From: Nocardioides sp. HDW12B | GTDB lineage: Bacteria; Actinomycetota; Actinomycetes; Propionibacteriales; Nocardioidaceae | DNA length: 64,000 bases | Direction: 5' to 3' | Assembly (NCBI RefSeq): GCF_011299595.1 | Contig: NZ_CP049867.1 | Coordinates: 3,038,001-3,102,000 of the forward strand | Part shown: positions 9,714 through 64,000 of the stretch, piece by piece | Layout: each line of letters begins with the position of its first letter | Numbering within the stretch: the stretch's first letter is position 1 | Position numbers and translations under genes: made by a program | The notes under the pieces: model-generated | Told to the model about the DNA's origin: nothing | The model's input: only the letters and a program-made list of their open reading frames with translations | Databases searched by the model: none

Positions 9714-10532
9714 ATGACGACGGCAGAGCCGAACGAGCAGCCGGCCGGACGGACGGGCTCCGGCCCGGGCGCCCGCGAGGGCGGGGGCGGGGGCGTGCAG
9801 TCGGTGCACCGTGCCTTCGACCTGCTCGAGGTCGTGGTGGCGCGTGGCGGCTCGGCCACGATCGGCGAGATCGCCGCTGCGGCCGACGTCCCGCTGGCCA
9901 CGGCGCACCGGCTGCTGCGCACGCTCGTGGAGCGCGGCTACATGCGTCAGTCGCCGGACCGTCGCTACGCGCTCGGGTTCCGGCTCGTGCCGCTGGGAGC
10001 GGCCGCCAGCTCGATGGCCGGCGCCGGCACCGAGCACCTGCTCAGCGGGCTGGTCGACGCGCTGGGCGAGACCGCCAACCTCGCCATGCTCGAGGGCTCG
10101 TCGGTCACCTACGTCGCCCAGGTGCCCGGGCGGCACTCGATGCGGATGTTCACCGAGGTCGGCCGCCGGGTGCAGCCCCACTGCACCGCGGTCGGCAAGG
10201 CGATGCTGGCCGAGGTCTCGGACGCCGAGGCCGCGGCGGTGCTGGGGCGGATCCGGCTCGCCCGCCACACGTCCGCGACCGTCACCGACCTCGACGCCGT
10301 GGTCGCCGGGCTGGCCGAGGTCCGACGGCTCGGCTACGCGATGGACGAGGGCGAGCAGGAGGTCGGGGTCCGCTGCGTGGCCGTCGCCGTGCCGCCCGCA
10401 CCCGGGAGCACCCTGCGGCTGGCGGTGTCGGTCTCCGGGCCCGAGCCCCGGATGACCGACGACGTCGTCGCCCGCGCGGTGCCGCTGCTCCAACGGACCG
10501 CCGCCTCGTTGTCCCGCGCCATCGCCGGCTGA
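9714..10532 (+). CDS. IclR-family transcriptional regulator of the glycolate operon
   Basis: The 272-residue protein has an N-terminal winged helix-turn-helix (about residues 28-85; ATIGEIAAAADVPLATAHRL) and a C-terminal IclR effector domain (about residues 110-265) with HCTAVGKAML. IclR regulators bind small organic acids and act as repressors or activators of catabolic operons. It is divergent from glcB and shares a 132-bp intergenic region with the glycolate promoter, so glycolate or glyoxylate is the likely effector. A poly-G ribosome site precedes the ATG. The first 35 residues are low-complexity Gly/Ala/Pro. Confidence 0.88.
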   Translation: MTTAEPNEQPAGRTGSGPGAREGGGGGVQSVHRAFDLLEVVVARGGSATIGEIAAAADVPLATAHRLLRTLVERGYMRQSPDRRYALGFRLVPLGAAASSMAGAGTEHLLSGLVDALGETANLAMLEGSSVTYVAQVPGRHSMRMFTEVGRRVQPHCTAVGKAMLAEVSDAEAAAVLGRIRLARHTSATVTDLDAVVAGLAEVRRLGYAMDEGEQEVGVRCVAVAVPPAPGSTLRLAVSVSGPEPRMTDDVVARAVPLLQRTAASLSRAIAG

Positions 10533-10574
10533 CCCCCGGCGGTCGAGCAGACCCCCGCTGGTCGAGCAGACCCC

Positions 10575-11263
10575 GGTGGTCGATCTCGACAAGCTCGATC
10601 CAAGGAGCAGCGAGCGCCAGCGAGCGTCGTCGAGACCCGGTGAGCCAGGCAGGGACCTGACCCTCCAGGGTCACCAGGTCTCGACAACGGTTGCTACGCA
10701 ACCCGCTCGACCACCGGGATGCGCTCGAGCACCCCATCCGGTGGTCGATCTCGACAAGCTCGATCCAAGGAGCAGCGAGCCCCAGCGAGCGTCGTCGAGA
10801 CCCGGTGAGCCAGGCAGGGACCCCACCCCGGTGGTCGAGCAGCGAGCGCCAGCGAGCGTCGTCGAGACCGGTGAGCCAGACAGGGAGCCAACCCCGGTGG
10901 TCGAGCAGCGAGCGCCAGCGAGCGTCGTCGAGACCTCGCGAGCCAGGCGGGATCCCGACCACCCGGGGTCACCAGGTCTCGACAACGGTTGCTACGCAAC
11001 CTGCTCGACCACCGGGATGCGCTCGAGCAACCCCATCCGGTGGTCGAGCAGCGAGCGCCAGCGAGCGTCGTCGAGACCTCGCGAGCCAGGCGGGATCCCG
11101 ACCACCCGGGGTCACCAGGTCTCGACAACGGTTGCTACGCAACCTGCTCGACCACCGGGTGCGCGCGACCACCCGGGAGTCACCAGGTCTCGACAACGGT
11201 TGCTGCGCAACCTGCTCGACCACCGGGTGCGCGCGACCACCGGGCCTCACCCCTGCTCGACCA
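10575..11263. repeat. Mosaic array of REP-like units
   Basis: Two related units alternate in both orientations. Type A has termini GGTGGTCGAGCA and GTCGTCGAGACC around a GCGAGC direct repeat. It occurs at 10575-10637, 10740-10802, 10830-10869, 10896-10935 and 11039-11078; the first two carry a 23-bp internal insertion. Type B, read on the minus strand, has the same termini around the hairpin GGTTGC-GTA-GCAACC. It occurs at 10677-10715, 10975-11013, 11118-11156 and, with one base change, 11186-11224. A lone terminus lies near 11253-11263. The array fills the whole gap between two convergent genes, and no coding gene is supported in it. Confidence 0.85.
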
Positions 11264-55990: not shown

Positions 55991-56027
55991 TTGTAGCGGG
56001 GGCAGGATTTGAACCTGCGACCTCTGG
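55991..56027 (-). other. Attachment site: 3' fragment of an initiator tRNA-fMet gene
   Basis: On the minus strand these 37 nt read as the end of a bacterial initiator tRNA: the last bases of the anticodon stem (CCAGAGG), the T arm (GCAGGTTCAAATCCTGC) and the acceptor 3' strand CCCCGCTAC. The sequence beyond 56027 does not continue the tRNA: no anticodon loop, D arm or matching 5' acceptor strand is found. Integrases that target tRNA genes leave exactly this 3' remnant at one end and a rebuilt tRNA at the other. The complete gene should therefore lie beyond the right edge. Confidence 0.8.
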
Positions 56028-56493: not shown

Positions 56494-56660
56494 GCACCAC
56501 GCCCCCTAAATTCAGCCATGCCTCACGCACGCCTATTGCGAGCGACCCTATCCACATCGAAGCCGTCCCGCGCGGTTTCGAGCACCTGTCAGCTCTCCCC
56601 CGCCTCTAGCGCTGCATGTTGACTAGAGTGAGTCCGCACTCCGAAGGATGTGGTTCGGCG

Positions 56661-57275
56661 ATGACCTGGCGGACGAAGTTCCTGGCTGTCCCCACAGCCC
56701 AACTGCAACAGGATGAAGAGGTGAGCCCTACCGCCAAGGCGACCCCTGAGCAGATGCGGGCCCATATGGCCCAAGTCCCGGCCGTCTACAACAGGATCGG
56801 AGCCGGGGCGCGTGCTGAGGACTTCCAACGGATGCGCGCTAGTGGCGATCCGCAGACTCGCGCCGTAGGCGACGCCTACCATCATCTGTTCTCGCCAGCC
56901 GGCGTTGACCACCGGCTCGAAGCCGAGATCGTCGAGGGCAAGGGCCTGGTGGTGACGCGAGGGCGCCACCGCGTTGAGGCCGCCCGCGAGATTGGGCTCC
57001 CCTACGTCCCAGTCCACGTTCGCGCAGCCGACGAGCGAACCCTGGATGCCGCCACACGAAGCTTGGAGGACCAACTGCAACCGACTGCTCCTGATGCGGT
57101 GATCGCGCAACAACAATTGAACGCCGAACACCGTGAAGCACGGTCAGCGACAGTGGAGCGAACCGGGCCGCAACCTACAGTGAGTGCGAGCGGCACCGAC
57201 CGGGCATCGCGCGCAATGGACGCCCCGTCCGCTACCTCTCAGACAGGTCCGTCGAGAGGTCCCGGTCGTTCCTAG
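56661..57275 (+). CDS. ParB/Srx-like domain protein of the island
   Basis: The 204-residue protein holds a ParB-like segment in the middle (about residues 95-125), VTRGRHRVEAAREIGLPYVP followed by VHVRA. This is the G-x-HR-x-EAA pattern of ParB/sulfiredoxin-fold domains that bind nucleotides or DNA. A helical region precedes it (PEQMRAHMAQVPAVYNRIGA), and the C-terminal 70 residues are low-complexity and probably disordered. There is no helix-turn-helix, so it is not a full partition protein. ATG at 56661 is chosen; an ATG at 56616 would add 15 residues. Confidence 0.65.
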   Translation: MTWRTKFLAVPTAQLQQDEEVSPTAKATPEQMRAHMAQVPAVYNRIGAGARAEDFQRMRASGDPQTRAVGDAYHHLFSPAGVDHRLEAEIVEGKGLVVTRGRHRVEAAREIGLPYVPVHVRAADERTLDAATRSLEDQLQPTAPDAVIAQQQLNAEHREARSATVERTGPQPTVSASGTDRASRAMDAPSATSQTGPSRGPGRS

Positions 57276-57660: not shown

Positions 57661-58371
57661 TCAGCGCCGGAGGTCACTCCTGATCTCGTCGAGCGCAAGG
57701 CCGAGCGACTTGCCAGCCTGCTCGAAGGACCGGTTGGACGTCGCGCTGAACTGCTTGACCACGAGGAGTTGCAGCAACCTCGTCTCCCGGTCAGAAGTCT
57801 GAGCCTTGTTGTGGAAGCAGGTGTAGAAGATCGAGCCTTCGCCGTATTTGGCGTACGCCATGATCGGGTTACCTGCTTGCTGGCTGCCCTTCGCTGCCGT
57901 GAGCAGAGACTCGGCCTTGCCGCGCCGCAGAACAGCCCAAGCCCCCATGTCGAACTCGACATCGATCCGACCCCCGAGAACGTCCTTGAGCTCGGGGTCA
58001 ATGACTTCCGCACTCACTTGTCCACGAGAACCCGAGCGTCCGCCAAAGTCGAAAACGCCCGGAAACGCCTGGGCGATCAATGTGTCGGCATGGTCGGAGG
58101 CATAAAGGCACCCACCACTCCGAACGAACTCCGCGAGGCCGCGCGGATCAACCTGGTCCGGCGTGCCACAGTTCACGAAGAGAAGAGAGCACTCGAACGA
58201 GCCATCGAATGGCTCGAACTCAACGCCCATCGAGGTGAGAATCTCCCCGATGTTGTCGTTGCCCGGTCGCGTGACGAAGACCTTCTGATGGCCAAGACGT
58301 GAAAGGTGTGGACCTGGTGGGAACTCGGTAACTCCCGTTGAGTCCATGACCCTGCGCCGCCATCGACTCAT
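57661..58371 (-). CDS. ThuA/GATase1-like protein with shared N-terminal tag
   Basis: Residues about 4-26 (WRRRVMDSTGVTEFPPGPHL, then SRL) form a tag that matches the N-terminus of the vWA protein of the same operon at 13 of 23 positions. Residues about 30-215 resemble ThuA/class I glutamine-amidotransferase-like domains: CSLLFVNCGTPDQVD, FVRSGGCLYASDHADTLI, and AYAKYGEGSIFYTCFHNKA. No complete Cys-His-Glu triad could be assigned, so it may be a binding domain, not an amidotransferase. ATG at 58371 overlaps the DedA stop as ATGA, which fixes the start. It is the last gene of the operon. Confidence 0.7.
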   Translation of the reverse strand: MSRWRRRVMDSTGVTEFPPGPHLSRLGHQKVFVTRPGNDNIGEILTSMGVEFEPFDGSFECSLLFVNCGTPDQVDPRGLAEFVRSGGCLYASDHADTLIAQAFPGVFDFGGRSGSRGQVSAEVIDPELKDVLGGRIDVEFDMGAWAVLRRGKAESLLTAAKGSQQAGNPIMAYAKYGEGSIFYTCFHNKAQTSDRETRLLQLLVVKQFSATSNRSFEQAGKSLGLALDEIRSDLRR

Positions 58372-59063
58372 GCCGCGTCGGCTTCTTGGACTCGCTGCCT
58401 CCGGTGGCGGCGCTCGATGAGAAACTGCGCAAGGACGGCAGCGCCGAATAACACAGCTCCGAGGAGTGCCAGCACAGCCCCGACAACCGGTGACCCATCC
58501 TCGCTGCGCAGTGAGGAGCTCGCCATCGCGTAGATGCTGATGTAAGTGGCGGACCAGAGGATGCACGACGGAGCAGCCCAAGCCACAAAGCGACGGAACG
58601 GAAAGGCGTGGACCCCCACCACAAATGGCGTGACCGTTCGGAGGACTGGGATGAAGCGCGATGTAAGGATCCAGGGCCCGCCACGACGCTCCACCATTCG
58701 TCCAACAGGACCAATGCGCTGCTCACCAGCTCGCCGTCGCAACCAGCGGCGCCGATGCAGGGTTGGACCGACCCATCGGCCAAGCCAATAGCCGGTGACT
58801 TCCCCGATGAACGCTCCAAGCGACACCAGAACGCCAAGCAGGAATCCTTCCCGCGGACTTTGGACCGCCGCCGAGGCGACCAACATGACGGTATCGCCGG
58901 GGACGAGCAGACCGGTGATGACGTTTGTCTCGAACATTGCGGCTGTGCCAGCCAGCAGCGCCCGGGCGGTCGGGTCGACAGTTTGAACCTTGTCAATCAG
59001 CTCGCTAACGGAGCCCCCGAAGTTCTGCAGCAAGTCCCATACGCCGTCCCAGAATCCCGTCAT
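58368..59063 (-). CDS. DedA-family (VTT-domain) membrane protein
   Basis: The 231-residue protein matches DedA: FETNVITGLLVPGDTVMLVA near residue 43, FIGEVTGYWLGRWVG near residue 85, GGPWILTSRFIPVLRTVTPFVVG near residue 128, and a terminal helix with a basic tail. DedA proteins move or flip lipids such as undecaprenyl phosphate or phosphatidylethanolamine. Its presence inside a chaperone/GTPase operon is unusual. It lies 38 bp after the vWA stop and is coupled to the next gene by an ATGA overlap. Confidence 0.82.
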   Translation of the reverse strand: MTGFWDGVWDLLQNFGGSVSELIDKVQTVDPTARALLAGTAAMFETNVITGLLVPGDTVMLVASAAVQSPREGFLLGVLVSLGAFIGEVTGYWLGRWVGPTLHRRRWLRRRAGEQRIGPVGRMVERRGGPWILTSRFIPVLRTVTPFVVGVHAFPFRRFVAWAAPSCILWSATYISIYAMASSSLRSEDGSPVVGAVLALLGAVLFGAAVLAQFLIERRHRRQRVQEADAA

Positions 59064-59101
59064 GCTCTCGCCTTCCTCATCGCGAGTGCCATTACTTCCC
59101 G

Positions 59102-59713
59102 TTAACCTTTGCGTATGAGGCCCTGCGCCATCGACGCAATCGAGTCCGCGAGGTTCTCCGACGTGGCGGTGCGCGCAGCCGCGGTCTCCGTGGATATGGA
59201 GGCGAGCTCTTGTGCGCTGCCTTCACCGAGGCCGCACGTCAAGATCCGGATGTTGTCGTTGATGAGTTCCGCTGCTTTCGACTCAGCGGTATGACGGTTT
59301 CCGAGGTCACCGTCTCCGAAGATCGCCACCACGCGGTCGCCTACATCGAGCGCCATCAACTGCCGATGTGCAAGCGTCAGAAATGGGACAGCATCGTTGC
59401 CGCCTGACGCAACAGCGCGCGAGAGAAGGGAGTGCGCTGGCTTCGGGCTGGAGTCCGGTGGCGTATCGCCCTCGACACCGTGGTGCCACAGGATCACGCC
59501 AACTTGGTATCCCGCGTCAACCGCCTCGTCGATAAAGCGCTTGCACCCCTTCACTGCCTTGAAAATTCGGTCGCCTTGCATCGAGCCACTGACGTCGAGC
59601 GCCAACACCACTGCGCCTCCGAACCGTGAGCGCAAGCGCTGAAAGTGCGGGCCGACGGGATACTCAGTTACCCCGTCGGAGCTGAACGACTTGCGAGTCC
59701 ATCCTGCTGCCAT
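59102..59713 (-). CDS. Minimal vWA-domain protein with shared N-terminal tag
   Basis: The first 26 residues contain the tag WTRKSFSSDGVTEYPVGPHF (then QRL), shared with the ThuA-like protein. The rest is one von Willebrand A domain. The MIDAS motif is VVLALDVSGSMQGDR (DxSxS), with SGGNDAVPFLTLAHR and VAIFGDGDLGNRHTA supplying the later metal contacts. Such domains bind partner proteins through a divalent metal. There is no signal peptide, so it is cytoplasmic. It lies 11 bp after the Hsp70 stop. Confidence 0.85.
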   Translation of the reverse strand: MAAGWTRKSFSSDGVTEYPVGPHFQRLRSRFGGAVVLALDVSGSMQGDRIFKAVKGCKRFIDEAVDAGYQVGVILWHHGVEGDTPPDSSPKPAHSLLSRAVASGGNDAVPFLTLAHRQLMALDVGDRVVAIFGDGDLGNRHTAESKAAELINDNIRILTCGLGEGSAQELASISTETAAARTATSENLADSIASMAQGLIRKG

Positions 59714-59724
59714 CGCTGCTCCGC

Positions 59725-61296
59725 CTACCGATCCAACGTGAGGCCACTGACGACCTGATGCTGCTCGGCGACCTCGGCGTCATCGAGGACTCCGTGAATG
59801 AACGCCTCTACTTCGAGTTTGGTCTTCGCCGTGCCCTCGGCCGATTCGACGGTCATACGCCCGTCCAGGTCGACCGACACGAACAAGGTGAGGGGGCTTC
59901 CTGCCGCGCGCGGCGGGATACCGACAATCTCCCCCTCCAAGACGATTCGGTTGTCGGCGGGCTCCTTGGATGTCACCGCACCACCCTGCTCGTATAGCTG
60001 GATGCGTGCCCGATCCTGCTCGTTTACGATGGTCGCTACGACATGTTCCTTGTGGTTGATGGGCAACGGCGTGTTGGCCGGCACGAAGTGGTGAACGTAC
60101 GGCTCCTCTCGCCAAGGCTCATGACTTGAATGGATGAGGATGCCGATCGACCGCGGCAGCACCGGAGTGATCCGGGCGAGCGGCCCTGGGAGTCCGGGCC
60201 GAGAATCAGCGACTCCCCCACTCTGCGCGACAAGCTGCGCGGCCAAGATCGCGGCCCCCCGTGCGACTGCCTTGTCAGGGTCGGTGAGCCGGACGGGAAG
60301 ACCTAAGCGCTCCCCCAGCGACTTACGAATCATCGGCATCCTGGTCGACCCTCCGACCAAGAGCACCTGTCCAGCGGCTGGCGAGCCCAAGACGGCAGCC
60401 GACTCGATCACGCGCGTCACGGTGTCAAGGCATCGGACCATCAGGTCCCTTGACGCTTCCTCGAAGGCAGCTCGATCGAGCCTCAGCTCGATGGCCCGGC
60501 CTTGGAACCGAATGCGCTCCGTCACGCTGTCGCGTCCCGTGAGTTGGCGCTTGATGCGCTCCGATGCCGCTTCGACGGTGCCCATCACGTCCTCGTCGTA
60601 GCGCAGATCGTCAGCGTTCGACAGCTTGTCCACTTCCGCCCACAGGAGGTCTTGGATTCGGCTATCCCAATCCAGTCCGCCGAGCCTCGTTTCACCATCC
60701 ACTGCCCAGACACGGGGCGCGCCTTTGTGCATACCGACGACAGCAACGTCGAAGGTGCCGCCACCCAGGTCGAAGACAAGAGAGGTGACGTCTGGTTCGT
60801 TTGCCAAGCCGTAGGCGTAGGCGGCCGCAACGGGCTCCGCAAGGAGTTCAAGGCACTTCAGCCCCCCGATCTCTGCCGCCGCGTGGGTAGCCTCCTTCTC
60901 CGCCACGCCGAAGTAGGCCGGGACGGTGATGACGGCGGCGAGGTCATCCAACGGCACGGCAAGGGCCCGAGATGCATCCATGGCCAGGTGCCGCAGGATG
61001 ACGCCGGAGATGCCTTCGGGCGTGTAACGCTGGCCGTGGAACTCCAGGGGAAACTCGCTACCCATCTGACGCTTGATTCCCGTCACGACGTTCTCAGGGT
61101 CGCGCGCAAGCATCCGCTTGGCTTCCTCCCCGACGAGTGCTCGTTCGCCGACCGCGAAATGCACGACTGAAGGAGTCAACTCCCCGCCGTCGGAGGATTC
61201 AACGATGGTCTCGCTGCCGTCACGGTCCCGATGGATCACGCAGGAGTACGTCGTCCCCAGGTCAATCCCGATGCTTCTCAGGTCGGTCACCGGCAT
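59725..61296 (-). CDS. Hsp70/DnaK-like chaperone lacking the C-terminal lid
   Basis: The 523-residue protein has a full Hsp70 ATPase domain (about residues 1-375): IGIDLGTTYSCVIHRD, LAEPVAAAYAYGL, VFDLGGGTFDVAVVGM and VLLVGGSTRMPMIRKSLGER. A beta-type substrate-binding domain follows (about residues 400-500; FVPANTPLPINHKEHV, DNRIVLEGEIVGIPPRAAG). The helical lid and the acidic tail of housekeeping DnaK are absent. It is a dedicated chaperone-like ATPase of this operon, not the cell's main DnaK. Its start overlaps the end of the SH3 gene by 10 bp. Confidence 0.9.
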   Translation of the reverse strand: MPVTDLRSIGIDLGTTYSCVIHRDRDGSETIVESSDGGELTPSVVHFAVGERALVGEEAKRMLARDPENVVTGIKRQMGSEFPLEFHGQRYTPEGISGVILRHLAMDASRALAVPLDDLAAVITVPAYFGVAEKEATHAAAEIGGLKCLELLAEPVAAAYAYGLANEPDVTSLVFDLGGGTFDVAVVGMHKGAPRVWAVDGETRLGGLDWDSRIQDLLWAEVDKLSNADDLRYDEDVMGTVEAASERIKRQLTGRDSVTERIRFQGRAIELRLDRAAFEEASRDLMVRCLDTVTRVIESAAVLGSPAAGQVLLVGGSTRMPMIRKSLGERLGLPVRLTDPDKAVARGAAILAAQLVAQSGGVADSRPGLPGPLARITPVLPRSIGILIHSSHEPWREEPYVHHFVPANTPLPINHKEHVVATIVNEQDRARIQLYEQGGAVTSKEPADNRIVLEGEIVGIPPRAAGSPLTLFVSVDLDGRMTVESAEGTAKTKLEVEAFIHGVLDDAEVAEQHQVVSGLTLDR

Positions 61297-61826
61297 CTCG
61301 GCAGTCCGTCGGTGTTCGTGGGAACGTAGGCATCGGAGATGTAACCGAGTCCAACGATGTGGTCCCACCGCCTAGAAGGCCCGTATGGTCCGTTGCTCAC
61401 ACGGTCTCCGTTCTCGACTTTGCAATCGGCCTTGACCCAACTTCCCTTATCAAGGACCTTCACCACCTTCGCATCAACAGAAGGGGCGACACGCACATTA
61501 ATGTTGGCCGAAACCCTGATTCTCTTAGTCGAGCCCGAGTCGTTGCCGCCCCCGCCGCGGTTCTCGCCGCCTCCGCTGTAGTTGTTGCCATCTCCGCTGT
61601 AGTTGTCGCCGCCTTCGTCCATCGCCCACGGCCACGGGATGACATTGGACACCCGTTGCTGAACGTCAAGGACGTTGGTCTTTGACGTATCCCAGATCCG
61701 AACAGCACGGTTGTCCGCCAACGCCCACGTGAGCAACGCGGCCGCTGCGGCCGCAACGATGACGAAGTGCATGAGGGTCCACGCTGTACGAAAAGTCCAA
61801 TAGATCAGTGGGATGCCGTTCTTCAT
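61287..61826 (-). CDS. Membrane-anchored SH3b-domain protein
   Basis: The 179-residue protein has one N-terminal transmembrane segment (about residues 13-36), a Gly/Asn/Ser-rich spacer (about residues 70-100) and a C-terminal bacterial SH3 domain (IRVSANINVRVAPSVDAKVV through GYISDAYVPTN). SH3b domains bind cell-wall peptides or proteins. The anchor puts the domain on the outer face if the N-terminus is inside. The start overlaps the GTPase stop as ATGA. Confidence 0.78.
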   Translation of the reverse strand: MKNGIPLIYWTFRTAWTLMHFVIVAAAAAALLTWALADNRAVRIWDTSKTNVLDVQQRVSNVIPWPWAMDEGGDNYSGDGNNYSGGGENRGGGGNDSGSTKRIRVSANINVRVAPSVDAKVVKVLDKGSWVKADCKVENGDRVSNGPYGPSRRWDHIVGLGYISDAYVPTNTDGLPRCR

Positions 61827-63457
61827 GCCGCTCCCTCCGCAACAGGCACGGGCGCCGCGCGCGGGATCACGCTCAGTCGCGAGTCGGTCGTCTTCAGTGC
61901 CCAATCGAGGACTCGTACAGGGTGAAGGGGATTGTGCCCGTCTCGCGTGCCGTAGGAGTCAACCGCGAAGTACTCGACCCGCTTGAAGTCCTGGTCGACT
62001 CTACGAATGAAGCCGTCTGCTCCACTACGGCGCAGCCACGACTTGATCGTTGCGCTGTCTGATGGATCGAGCGAACCGAGGCCCGGGAGCCTCTGCAGCA
62101 CATCGAGCTTGGTCAAGACGATCGCCAAGCTCTTGGAGCCGAGCCGCACGTCTTCAGCACGTAAGCGGTCCACGACGCTTGCATAGGAGTCCTCTGGGTC
62201 GCCCTGTGCGATAGGGACTACCCCTCCCATGTTCGCCACTCGCAGTTGCTCAGTCACCTGGGGAAGCGCGAGCGGATCGAGCATGAAGAGAAGTACGTCG
62301 GCTGTGTCGATGTACCCAAGGCCCTGTGACCGCTCCCAGTCGACGAAATTCTCGCCTGCAGCGTCCATCAACTGAATTTCAAGTTCCCGGCCTTTCAGTG
62401 AAAGGATGAGGGGGACTCCTTCTGGCCGATCTTCCCATGCGGTCTTCGCGACGCGCTGGCCAGATGTGACCGCGGTGGCGGCGGCCTTGAGGAAGGTCTC
62501 GGCCACTGGGGAAATGGGTGCGAGGGAACCCGACAGTGCCTCAATGCGGCTTTGAAGTTCCACCACCCCGCTGGACAAGAACTGCGTCTTCCCTGCCCCC
62601 ACAGCACCGATGACAGGGACAGGCAGCACACGTCTCGTGCCGCTGCCCTTTGGCACGTCCTGGAGGCAAAAGGGGCAGACCGTGTCGAGATGCTTCGCGG
62701 CCCCTCCGACCGTCGCAGGGATGCTCGTGCCACAGCCGCACCGCCGGCGGATGATCCCCAGTGGACCGGGCCTCACGTCGTGGTGGATCGTTGAGCAAGA
62801 GGCACCGATGCATCGGTAGCTCGGCGACGTCGTGACTCGATAGCACTTGGCACACCTCAGCGTCGCCTTGCGCCGGCGTCGGATCAGTCGGTCGTAGGAG
62901 CGATAAGTGAGCACCCCGCCTTGTTGGATGATGTAGACGAACCCGCCGAGAAGGCGCATGACGACGTACCACACCGACGTCGAGATCCAGGCGCCGATCG
63001 CGAAACCCGCGAAGGGTGGCAATAGAACGGCAAGCCACGCTGGCTTCGGGTCTTGATCGAAGAGCCACGAAAACGCCCCGTTAACTGTGCGCTTCCTTTG
63101 AGTCAGGACCGCGTTAGCGTCGCGTTTCGCCTGGTGTGGGTTGTAGATCGGCCATGCACGATCCCAACCGAAGTGCTTGGCCTGTCCCTTCGGTGCATCA
63201 CCTAGCACCTTTCCTGCCACGACGGCTTCCGGGGTGGCGATCTCGGGTTCCTCCGCTGCTTTGCCGCGCAGCACTCGAGCAGGCAGTACGACGCCCGCTA
63301 GGGCGCCGATGGCAATGCCCGCCGCGAATGCCGCGATCCAGAACACGAGAACCCATGCGAAGACTCGCGCTAGAGCGGCAGCCACTACCCAGAGGGCAAA
63401 TCCAATGGCAGCGATCGCTGCCATGATCATCAGAAACCAACCCGCGAGTTCTTCCAT
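61823..63457 (-). CDS. Membrane zinc-ribbon TRAFAC-type GTPase (DO-GTPase2-like)
   Basis: The 544-residue protein starts with two long hydrophobic segments (about residues 6-60), has further ones near residues 143-185, and then a Cys-rich region (about residues 200-270; LRCAKCYRV, YRCIGASC, RRCGCGTS, VCPFCLQDV) that should bind two or more zinc ions. Residues about 280-530 are a GTPase domain. It has a P-loop VPVIGAVGAGKTQFLSSG, a switch-region LMDAAGENFVDW resembling DxxG, and IVLTKLDVL as the TKxD base-recognition motif. The order fits the double-GTPase/TRAFAC proteins of predicted conflict systems. The gene starts 2 bp after the previous stop. Confidence 0.8.
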   Translation of the reverse strand: MEELAGWFLMIMAAIAAIGFALWVVAAALARVFAWVLVFWIAAFAAGIAIGALAGVVLPARVLRGKAAEEPEIATPEAVVAGKVLGDAPKGQAKHFGWDRAWPIYNPHQAKRDANAVLTQRKRTVNGAFSWLFDQDPKPAWLAVLLPPFAGFAIGAWISTSVWYVVMRLLGGFVYIIQQGGVLTYRSYDRLIRRRRKATLRCAKCYRVTTSPSYRCIGASCSTIHHDVRPGPLGIIRRRCGCGTSIPATVGGAAKHLDTVCPFCLQDVPKGSGTRRVLPVPVIGAVGAGKTQFLSSGVVELQSRIEALSGSLAPISPVAETFLKAAATAVTSGQRVAKTAWEDRPEGVPLILSLKGRELEIQLMDAAGENFVDWERSQGLGYIDTADVLLFMLDPLALPQVTEQLRVANMGGVVPIAQGDPEDSYASVVDRLRAEDVRLGSKSLAIVLTKLDVLQRLPGLGSLDPSDSATIKSWLRRSGADGFIRRVDQDFKRVEYFAVDSYGTRDGHNPLHPVRVLDWALKTTDSRLSVIPRAAPVPVAEGAA

Positions 63458-63459
63458 CG

Positions 63460-63993
63460 CTATTCCCCCTTGTTCCGGCGGAACGGCCCGCCCAGCCTGC
63501 GCTTGCCCCCGTACGGACTAGCTTGGTGCCGCACGTACTTGTCCATCTCGCTCTTCAGATGCGGTTGCATCCTCGCCGTCGCCACCAGCTCTGGCTTGGC
63601 TAAGAAGATCTCCGCAAGTGCGTCCTCCGCTGCTGCCGCCACTCGCTCATCTGGATCGGTGCGAAGGCTGAGGCCGTGGTCGATGGCACGCATAACATGT
63701 TTGGTCGCTGCCAGATCGAGGATCGACGTACGGATCGCTTCTGGTCCCCACGGGTCAGCGGCCCGTAGCAGCTTCTCGACCTCCTCGGAGTTCGAGGAGT
63801 TGAGCAGCAGCCAGCCGACATCGGAGAGGAGGAATGGTGTCAGTCGTCCCAAGTAGGGAAGGCATGTGGCCATCCGAGCCGCCGATCGCATCGACACTTC
63901 GTCACGGGCTCGTCTGAACGATGTACGTGCCCGGGAGTATTCGTCCGCAAAGGCTGCCAACTCGGTGTCCGTAGATCGGCGCAGGCTATCCAT
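63460..63993 (-). CDS. Helical-repeat protein at the operon front (start uncertain)
   Basis: The 177-residue frame is almost wholly helical and Ala/Leu/Arg-rich, with HEAT-like stretches (PWGPEAIRTSILDLAATKHV, DERVAAAAEDALAEIFLAKP) and a basic tail (GGKRRLGGPFRRNKGE). I do not recognise a named family. The ATG at 63993 lacks a visible ribosome site and the frame stays open to the window edge, so the true start may lie outside. It precedes the GTPase gene by 2 bp and probably acts with it. Confidence 0.6.
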   Translation of the reverse strand: MDSLRRSTDTELAAFADEYSRARTSFRRARDEVSMRSAARMATCLPYLGRLTPFLLSDVGWLLLNSSNSEEVEKLLRAADPWGPEAIRTSILDLAATKHVMRAIDHGLSLRTDPDERVAAAAEDALAEIFLAKPELVATARMQPHLKSEMDKYVRHQASPYGGKRRLGGPFRRNKGE

Positions 63994-64000
63994 CAGTGAG

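Follow-up and report, generated by a model that had tools for sequence, protein, structure and literature searches.

A predicted GAP1-N2-type double-GTPase system with two lidless Hsp70 proteins and a peptide tag shared by two tail proteins in Nocardioides sp. HDW12B

The window, as the whole stretch of DNA analysed here is called, is 64,000 nucleotides long and corresponds to genome bases 3038001–3102000 of Nocardioides sp. HDW12B (NZ_CP049867.1, one 4.19-Mb contig). An initial annotation described seven tightly packed leftward genes at its end as part of a GTPase-centred predicted conflict system, and all seven open reading frames are confirmed. Reading beyond the window, these are the downstream part of a leftward operon of 12 genes; the five further genes reach genome 3112752, the first starting approximately 10.8 kb past the window edge. 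From first to last, the operon encodes GrpE, Hsp70A, an 887 amino acid (aa) protein, an FN3 protein, GTPase 1, GAP1, GTPase 2, a transmembrane (TM)/SH3 protein, Hsp70B, a vWA protein, a VTT/DedA protein and a ThuA-like protein, with overlaps of no more than 10 bp and gaps of no more than 38 bp. Its protein domains place the core of the operon among the double-GTPase systems of GAP1-N2 type, in the HSP70/GrpE theme predicted by Kaur et al. (2020, PMC7159879). The gene cluster combines two GTPases with several chaperones and most likely serves antiviral defence or suicide; we infer a suicide or surveillance role. That this is a conflict system of this type and theme carrying a chaperone-addressed client module on its tail is the reading preferred here, with a chance of being correct that we would put slightly below even.

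The assignment of the core is based on GAP1 and its neighbours. GAP1 (790 aa; genome 3101460–3103832, leftward, equal to window 63460–65832, with its C-terminal part in the window at 63460..64000) matches PF20013 (GAP1-N2) at 71.4 bits and PF20014 (GAP1-M) at 45.0 bits, the Pfam cut-off being 24 for both. The helical-repeat protein of the initial annotation is only the 177-aa C-terminus of GAP1; this end has no Pfam C-domain match and gives HEAT_2 at 12.9 bits, below cut-off. A DO-GTPase pair is present. GTPase 2 (544 aa; 61823..63457, minus strand) is a membrane zinc-ribbon double-GTPase matching DO-GTPase2 at 51.3 bits (cut-off 27), as had been read from the sequence, and its hydropathy peaks at residues 2–63 and 140–160, which do not resolve the number of helices. 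GTPase 1 (GTP1; genome 3103834–3105012, leftward) scores 24.0 bits with the DO-GTPase profile, under the cut-off of 27, yet the SGKT, DxxGE and [ST]KxD motifs and the paired zinc-ribbon cysteines are conserved across an alignment of four sequences that includes its own. The FN3 protein (895 aa; genome 3105012–3107699; fn3 31.2 bits, cut-off 25), Hsp70A (genome 3110382–3111965; HSP70 308.8 bits) and GrpE (genome 3111958–3112752; GrpE 35.3 bits) are likewise encoded leftward. No DnaJ or TPR fusion on the FN3 protein was found with Pfam. The first 350 aa of its relative in Pseudarthrobacter siccitolerans (locus L048) are mostly helical in an AlphaFold model (pLDDT 83) with no PDB match at E≤0.001, and neither Pfam nor the structure search supports a J-domain in the FN3 protein.

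In the compared parts of Kaur et al. (PMC7159879), GAP1-N2 systems consist of paired DO-GTPases and an FNIII protein, with HSP70 and GrpE in about 14% of the neighbourhoods. A second HSP70 gene, lacking the peptide-binding domain, is described there for a subset, and the systems, as predictions, are reported to be strongly linked to multicellular bacteria. The operon had been put forward as undescribed, which is not upheld, because its core is a system of this type and was predicted in 2020. The combination with DedA, SH3 and ThuA-like proteins had been called unfamiliar. The main text of that paper, which is the part compared, makes no mention of DedA, ThuA, TraG or VirD4. As far as its readable text goes, the tail, the common tag described below and the T4CP-like neighbour are therefore additions to a core already predicted. 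No publication on the tag or on the Hsp70B-vWA-ThuA-DedA set was found in the open-licence PMC literature.

Hsp70B (523 aa; 59725..61296, minus strand; Pfam HSP70 282.7 bits) is the second Hsp70 of the operon. The initial annotation of an Hsp70 without a lid holds for both complete Hsp70 proteins, which are 523 and 527 aa long and whose match to the HSP70 profile stops near position 510 of 599; in Hsp70A and Hsp70B the ATPase motifs and the substrate-binding beta domain are present and the helical lid is missing. Following Hsp70B is the vWA protein (203 aa; 59102..59713, minus strand; VWA_2 30.4 bits, cut-off 27), correctly named at the outset, with the N-terminal tag WTRKSFSSDGVTEYPVGPHFQRL. 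Its MIDAS motif DxSGSM and FGDGD aspartate are invariant across six aligned sequences, its own included. The last gene encodes the ThuA-like protein (236 aa; 57661..58371, minus strand) with the N-terminal tag WRRRVMDSTGVTEFPPGPHLSRL. No Pfam or NCBIfam model matches it, including those for ThuA and amidotransferases. The name given to it stands for the predicted fold: its AlphaFold model (pLDDT 79) is class I amidotransferase/ThuA-like and matches 4jqs and 4pxy at ranks 7 and 11 (TMq 0.51 and 0.54). The best-placed entries of that structure search are GH42 beta-galactosidases, one piece of which, we assume, has a class I amidotransferase-like fold. Distant relatives of the domain are found within large, secreted-looking open frames of 850–1148 aa in other classes of the phylum (L138–L145), some with what we take to be SLH-like repeats.

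Both the vWA and the ThuA-like proteins start with the same kind of tag, 23 aa long and of the approximate form WxRRxFxSxG[VL]T[EQ]xPxGPxLxRL, in which W, T, P and G are invariant (13/13). In four loci with both proteins, the vWA and ThuA-like tags score 59–79 against each other, while shuffled tags score 31 at most (20,000 shuffles each). A profile was built from the 13 tags and searched in six frames of 20 genomes. This gave 22 matches at E<1e-6, all on vWA (15) or ThuA-like (7) proteins, with 9 of these outside the training set. One weaker match (E=9.8e-5) falls on a protein of locus L167 without a Pfam match (10000–10992), perhaps a second amidotransferase-like protein, and the next are at E≥0.016. 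Using the same profile, no third tagged protein was found in the source genome, where the next match has E=0.13. Among 364 genomes of the class, four matches in three genomes at E≤0.001 are all in this system (the source genome and, by coordinates, two matching Frankia loci); at most 24 candidates were scored per genome, so misses are possible. A ThuA profile found nothing in 15 genomes, a negative of little weight because none of them is known to match. In the ThuA-like AlphaFold model the tag is unstructured (pLDDT<50, residues 1–26). It has the RRxF core of a twin-arginine export signal, which was rejected as its identity, by inference, because no hydrophobic stretch was found in either protein. 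Also in L167 (1503–14347), a tagged vWA gene is followed by a T4CP-like gene and lies beside Z1, DUF4420 and AIPR (abortive infection) genes; the vWA at the end of this contig shares a 36-aa overlap with the truncated vWA of L149.

Occurrence of the tag follows that of Hsp70B. Of 16 genomes with Hsp70B, 15 carry the tag, against none of the four without (p=0.001), or 14 of 15 against 0 of 4 when L057, itself found via the tag, is left out (p=0.0013). A seventeenth Hsp70B genome (L117), found by a vWA profile, is tagged. In L050, where the contig ends within Hsp70B, no tag-type match was found with the vWA and ThuA profiles, the only ones applied. A hidden Hsp70B in the four untagged genomes was sought and not found, the Hsp70 matches at E≤1e-30 being the Hsp70A of the system in each. 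The genome of L054 has one extra Hsp70, which is nearer to Hsp70A (336 against 254 bits) and lies beside an FN3 protein. The remaining matches are at 208 bits or less, and in two positive controls this search gave Hsp70B at 929 and 313 bits.

The sixteenth Hsp70B genome, the only untagged one among them, is that of Actinomyces dentalis. Here Hsp70B and the vWA protein are in one open frame of 981 codons, and of the tag nothing but its final part is retained in front of the vWA domain. In this one case, the decay is what would be expected if fusion had made a docking tag superfluous. In addition, across 13 loci and with GTP1 distances as control for the partial correlations, vWA-tag distances were compared with those of seven protein parts, and the Hsp70B substrate-binding domain gives the closest agreement (r 0.71, partial 0.59, 0/2000 permutations). 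Partial values are 0.19 for the Hsp70A substrate domain, 0.16 for GTP2 and 0.14 for the body of the vWA protein. None of 46 windows along the vWA protein is higher against the Hsp70B substrate domain, and the near-ties overlap the tag. This suggests that the tag docks client proteins on Hsp70B, a suggestion supported for the vWA protein and not for the ThuA-like protein, because the co-variation holds for the former only.

A mechanism can be proposed on this basis. An assembly of the FN3 and GAP1 proteins would sense an invader or envelope damage and would switch the GTPase pair at the membrane. The lidless Hsp70B, cycled by GrpE, would hold the tagged vWA and ThuA-like proteins via the tag and would release or assemble them once the GTPase switch fires. 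The single-TM protein with its SH3-like extension (179 aa; 61287..61826, minus strand) and the VTT/DedA-family protein (231 aa; 58368..59063, minus strand; Pfam VTT 70.9 bits) are membrane components, which suggests that the system acts at the envelope; infected cells would probably stop growing or die. Of the earlier assignments, DedA is borne out by the VTT match, and the membrane SH3 protein in its single TM segment, SH3_3 being below cut-off (17.9 bits against 27); most relatives seen of the latter gene have only the TM part of approximately 70 aa. A link to the membrane had also been suggested and is supported. The context is suggestive of defence, with two GmrSD-type genes on the same island, a toxin domain in the relative L061, and the Z1, DUF4420 and AIPR genes by the tagged vWA gene in L167.

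A narrower and more doubtful proposal, which we hold tentatively, is that of an address-tag system in bacterial immunity, in which a 23-aa N-terminal peptide on unrelated proteins (vWA, ThuA-like and, in L167, perhaps a second amidotransferase-like protein) would assign them to a dedicated lidless Hsp70, and this chaperone would hold them inactive until the membrane GTPase switch fires. If so, effectors would be recruited to the system by chaperone specificity in place of fusion or a dimerising domain, and a private Hsp70 would be choosing immune effectors by a short peptide. The tag offers a simple testable link, in that chaperone and effector would pair through it and might be uncoupled by one mutation.

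Distribution of the system was assessed in 391 genomes of the order, where GAP1-N2 was found in 38 (37 above cut-off) and is absent from the only further genome that the survey lists for the genus. Of 39 places in this survey, 37 were taken, the source locus and one below cut-off being left out. These were joined by the best 80 of 101 confirmed named actinobacterial core loci, giving a set of 117 loci in which genomes may recur between the two parts. By direct comparison, GTP1, GAP1 and Hsp70A occur together in 18 of the 117, and GrpE, FN3 and GTP2 are present in all 18. In P. siccitolerans the same order is found from the T4CP-like gene to a convergent 219-aa gene, including the tail with DedA and ThuA-like genes; this locus differs in having no 887-aa protein and a TM/SH3 protein reduced to the TM part. 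With the core in 18 other loci and the tail in Pseudarthrobacter, the genes are not adjacent by chance. Elsewhere, Hsp70B is followed by a vWA or ThuA-like gene in Frankia, Rhodococcus, Gordonia, Modestobacter, Cryobacterium, a Bifidobacteriaceae metagenome-assembled genome and others. Two Frankia loci have Hsp70B then ThuA-like and a third ends in Hsp70B, Rhodococcus L056 has Hsp70B and vWA, then DedA and ThuA-like on the opposite strand, and the Nocardiopsis loci end after the TM protein. DedA is found in 4 of 18 core loci (L016, L048, L056 and L060) against 0 of 99 others, with p=0.0004 as a guide only, since the loci are related and the position of DedA varies. In L061, the place between the TM protein and Hsp70B is taken by a papain-fold toxin domain, at 71.2 bits, together with a HerA-like ATPase, at 37.4 bits.

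Other variants were seen among these relatives. The toxin domain of L061 (15890–20175) is that of papain-fold toxin 1 (glutamine deamidase), from Pfam on L061 only, with L062, L063 and L065 alike by eye. A double AAA+ ATPase with a trypsin-like domain (L016, 969–4217) adjoins a related system without Hsp70B. In the genome of Nocardiopsis coralli, another contig (L173, 360–6167) has one more Hsp70A-like gene with an FN3 protein after it, which may mark a further system of the kind.

The 887-aa protein of the source operon is a rearranged pseudo-Hsp70 (genome 3107696–3110359, leftward; 69696–72359 in window numbering and 4696–7359 of L010; HSP70 257.5 bits). It is composed of the first domain of the FN3 protein (186/338 identical), an Hsp70 substrate domain (65/146) and then an Hsp70 ATPase domain (277/356), the reverse of the domain order of a normal Hsp70. 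Its ATPase motifs are changed, with GVHLGST and DLGGMS standing for GIDLGTT and DLGGGT. The frame is whole, and dN/dS is 0.14 for the ATPase domain against Hsp70A, 0.31 for the substrate domain and 0.34 for the first domain. No such FN3-Hsp70 chimera is among the 80 named loci. Inactive enzymes have been suggested as decoys in such systems, in the compared parts of PMC7159879. The degenerate Hsp70 might then, although this is a weaker suggestion, act as a decoy that draws invader proteins directed at the working Hsp70; if the address-tag proposal is correct, the degenerate copy, next to its working counterpart, would make a testable decoy.

The operon sits on a 30.7-kb tRNA-targeted island. 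A 35-bp exact direct repeat has its left, attL-like copy of the 3' half of tRNA-Met(CAT) at window 55993..56027 (minus strand) and its right copy at genome 3124694–3124728, spanning 30,701 bp. The tRNA-borne island of the initial annotation is thus borne out by its bounds, with the qualification that the intact tRNA-Met gene holding the right copy is outside the window, at genome 3124692–3124768. Also on the island are a T4CP-like ATPase, an IS481-type protein, two GmrSD-type genes and an SSB-like gene. The integrase at the right end (genome 3123078–3124282) is split over three frames, with one piece matching Phage_integrase at 36.8 bits, and the island is therefore probably fixed, unless the frame break is a sequencing error. 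A small HTH_17 (excisionase-like) gene adjoins it. The two GmrSD_N (DUF262) genes are adjacent (L007, 8135–12207; 105.5 and 61.3 bits) and resemble SspE/HEC-type defence proteins. The T4CP-like gene (genome 3113188–3114714) is divergent from the operon, is conserved in the source genome, L048 and L016, and matches mad8 of PADLOC at 41 bits. Convergent to the operon is a 219-aa gene (56616..57275, plus strand) that we take to be ParB-like; Pfam gives nothing above cut-off, and the same convergent neighbour is present in P. siccitolerans L048. A phage or plasmid origin was rejected, the ThuA-like protein being without match in phages, plasmids and viral contigs. The vWA protein has two weak viral matches only (31–35% identity), and GTP1 matches two plasmid records only (23–24% identity).

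Several observations weigh against a chaperone-addressed client module in a conflict system. No J-domain that would load Hsp70B was found. PADLOC gives the operon only weak matches (PtuA1 14.2, PDC-M61B 19.5 and PDC-M63B 14.6 bits), and a known defence family was on that account rejected as its identity. DedA and ThuA-like proteins each occur in only 4 of 18 core loci, a fifth ThuA-like protein (L063) being beyond the locus bounds. The vWA tag also correlates with the ATPase domains of Hsp70A (partial 0.37, 5/2000) and Hsp70B (0.33, 13/2000), and the ThuA-like tags (7 loci) do not follow the Hsp70B substrate-binding domain (partial -0.10, with 44 of 54 windows as good or better). These distance tests are exploratory and handle phylogeny by one control only. 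The genomes compared for the tag were picked by core similarity, two of the four negatives are Nocardiopsis, and the positive L057 was found through the tag.

The same conflict system could be wired differently, with the tag docking on GAP1, a GTPase or the FN3 protein, the Hsp70 proteins mainly forming multimeric assemblies, and the vWA and ThuA-like proteins serving as ligand-binding or scaffold parts. The lack of co-variation in the ThuA-like tags would fit this, and the tag, which adjoins the initial strand in each of the two folds, might form a surface linked to the fold; multimeric assembly is itself proposed for HSP70 and tubulin in these systems in the compared parts of Kaur et al. (PMC7159879). 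This wiring is nevertheless somewhat unlikely: the tag tracks Hsp70B and not the core, with 0 of 4 core genomes without Hsp70B tagged, it has decayed where vWA and Hsp70B are fused in A. dentalis, and in the vWA protein it is closest to the Hsp70B substrate domain, with GTP2 and the body of the vWA protein further off (partial 0.16 and 0.14). A chaperone-rich operon with VTT, TM and SH3 parts might instead serve envelope stress or protein quality control, its GTPases, DedA (of the lipid-carrier flippase type), TM/SH3 protein and chaperones maintaining the envelope or membrane proteins, and DedA proteins have been described as undecaprenyl phosphate flippases. Patchy occurrence (38 of 391 genomes, and not in the other genome listed for the genus), the location on a tRNA-targeted island with GmrSD genes, and variable tails that include a toxin domain in a relative all make such a role improbable.

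The tRNA repeat and integrase remains, along with a T4CP-like gene that is conserved in three genomes and follows tagged vWA genes in L167, would suit a cargo of a conjugative or mobilisable element, with the operon and T4CP-like ATPase serving transfer or maintenance of the island. We consider this very unlikely, given the integrase split over three frames and that no relaxase or other type IV secretion match was found among the scanned island genes, some small genes being outside the scan. The L048 cassette, moreover, adjoins a gene that is presumably of housekeeping type, with no tRNA within the 21 kb examined. Chance adjacency of unrelated genes in the source strain, to which the sparse DedA and ThuA-like genes might point, was rejected and is given almost no weight, because gene order is conserved in Pseudarthrobacter, Hsp70B precedes vWA or ThuA-like genes in many genera, and the Hsp70B-vWA fusion exists.

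Compared with known systems, the resemblance of the last protein to the ThuA family is one of modelled fold, with no match to the sequence models. The operon differs from the TerY-P triad in having no kinase or PP2C Pfam match, including beside the vWA gene. CoCoNuTs, in the compared parts of PMC11090510, are similarly built around GTPases, to which Hsp70-like units, vWA proteins and FtsK/HerA-type ATPases are added. Here the GTPase and Hsp70 partners are from other families, and no McrB-type GTPase, the mark of a CoCoNuT, was matched with Pfam in the operon. Three further comparisons are with the compared parts of Kaur et al. (PMC7159879). The MoxR-vWA ternary systems share a chaperone ATPase and vWA protein as a switch or threshold pair, a constant core and a variable tail; no MoxR-type Pfam match is among the scanned operon proteins, Hsp70B being in the place of the chaperone. 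Like the effector-associated domains (EADs), the tag is a short module common to different proteins of one system and thought to bring them to a core partner. EADs are small domains that pair homotypically and have a copy on the core protein, whereas the tag is 23 aa long, predicted to be disordered by one model, and on no third protein in the source genome. Within the HSP70/GrpE theme itself, Hsp70B differs in keeping the beta substrate domain, as the second HSP70 described lacks the peptide-binding domain, and a standalone vWA protein belongs there to the kinase/PP2C theme. The common tag, Hsp70B-vWA fusion and rearranged pseudo-Hsp70 are features of the present system and not of those descriptions. 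What the two share is the DO-GTPase pair, GAP1-N2 and GAP1-M, the FN3 protein, HSP70 with GrpE, membrane association, an actinobacterial distribution and, in a subset, a second HSP70.

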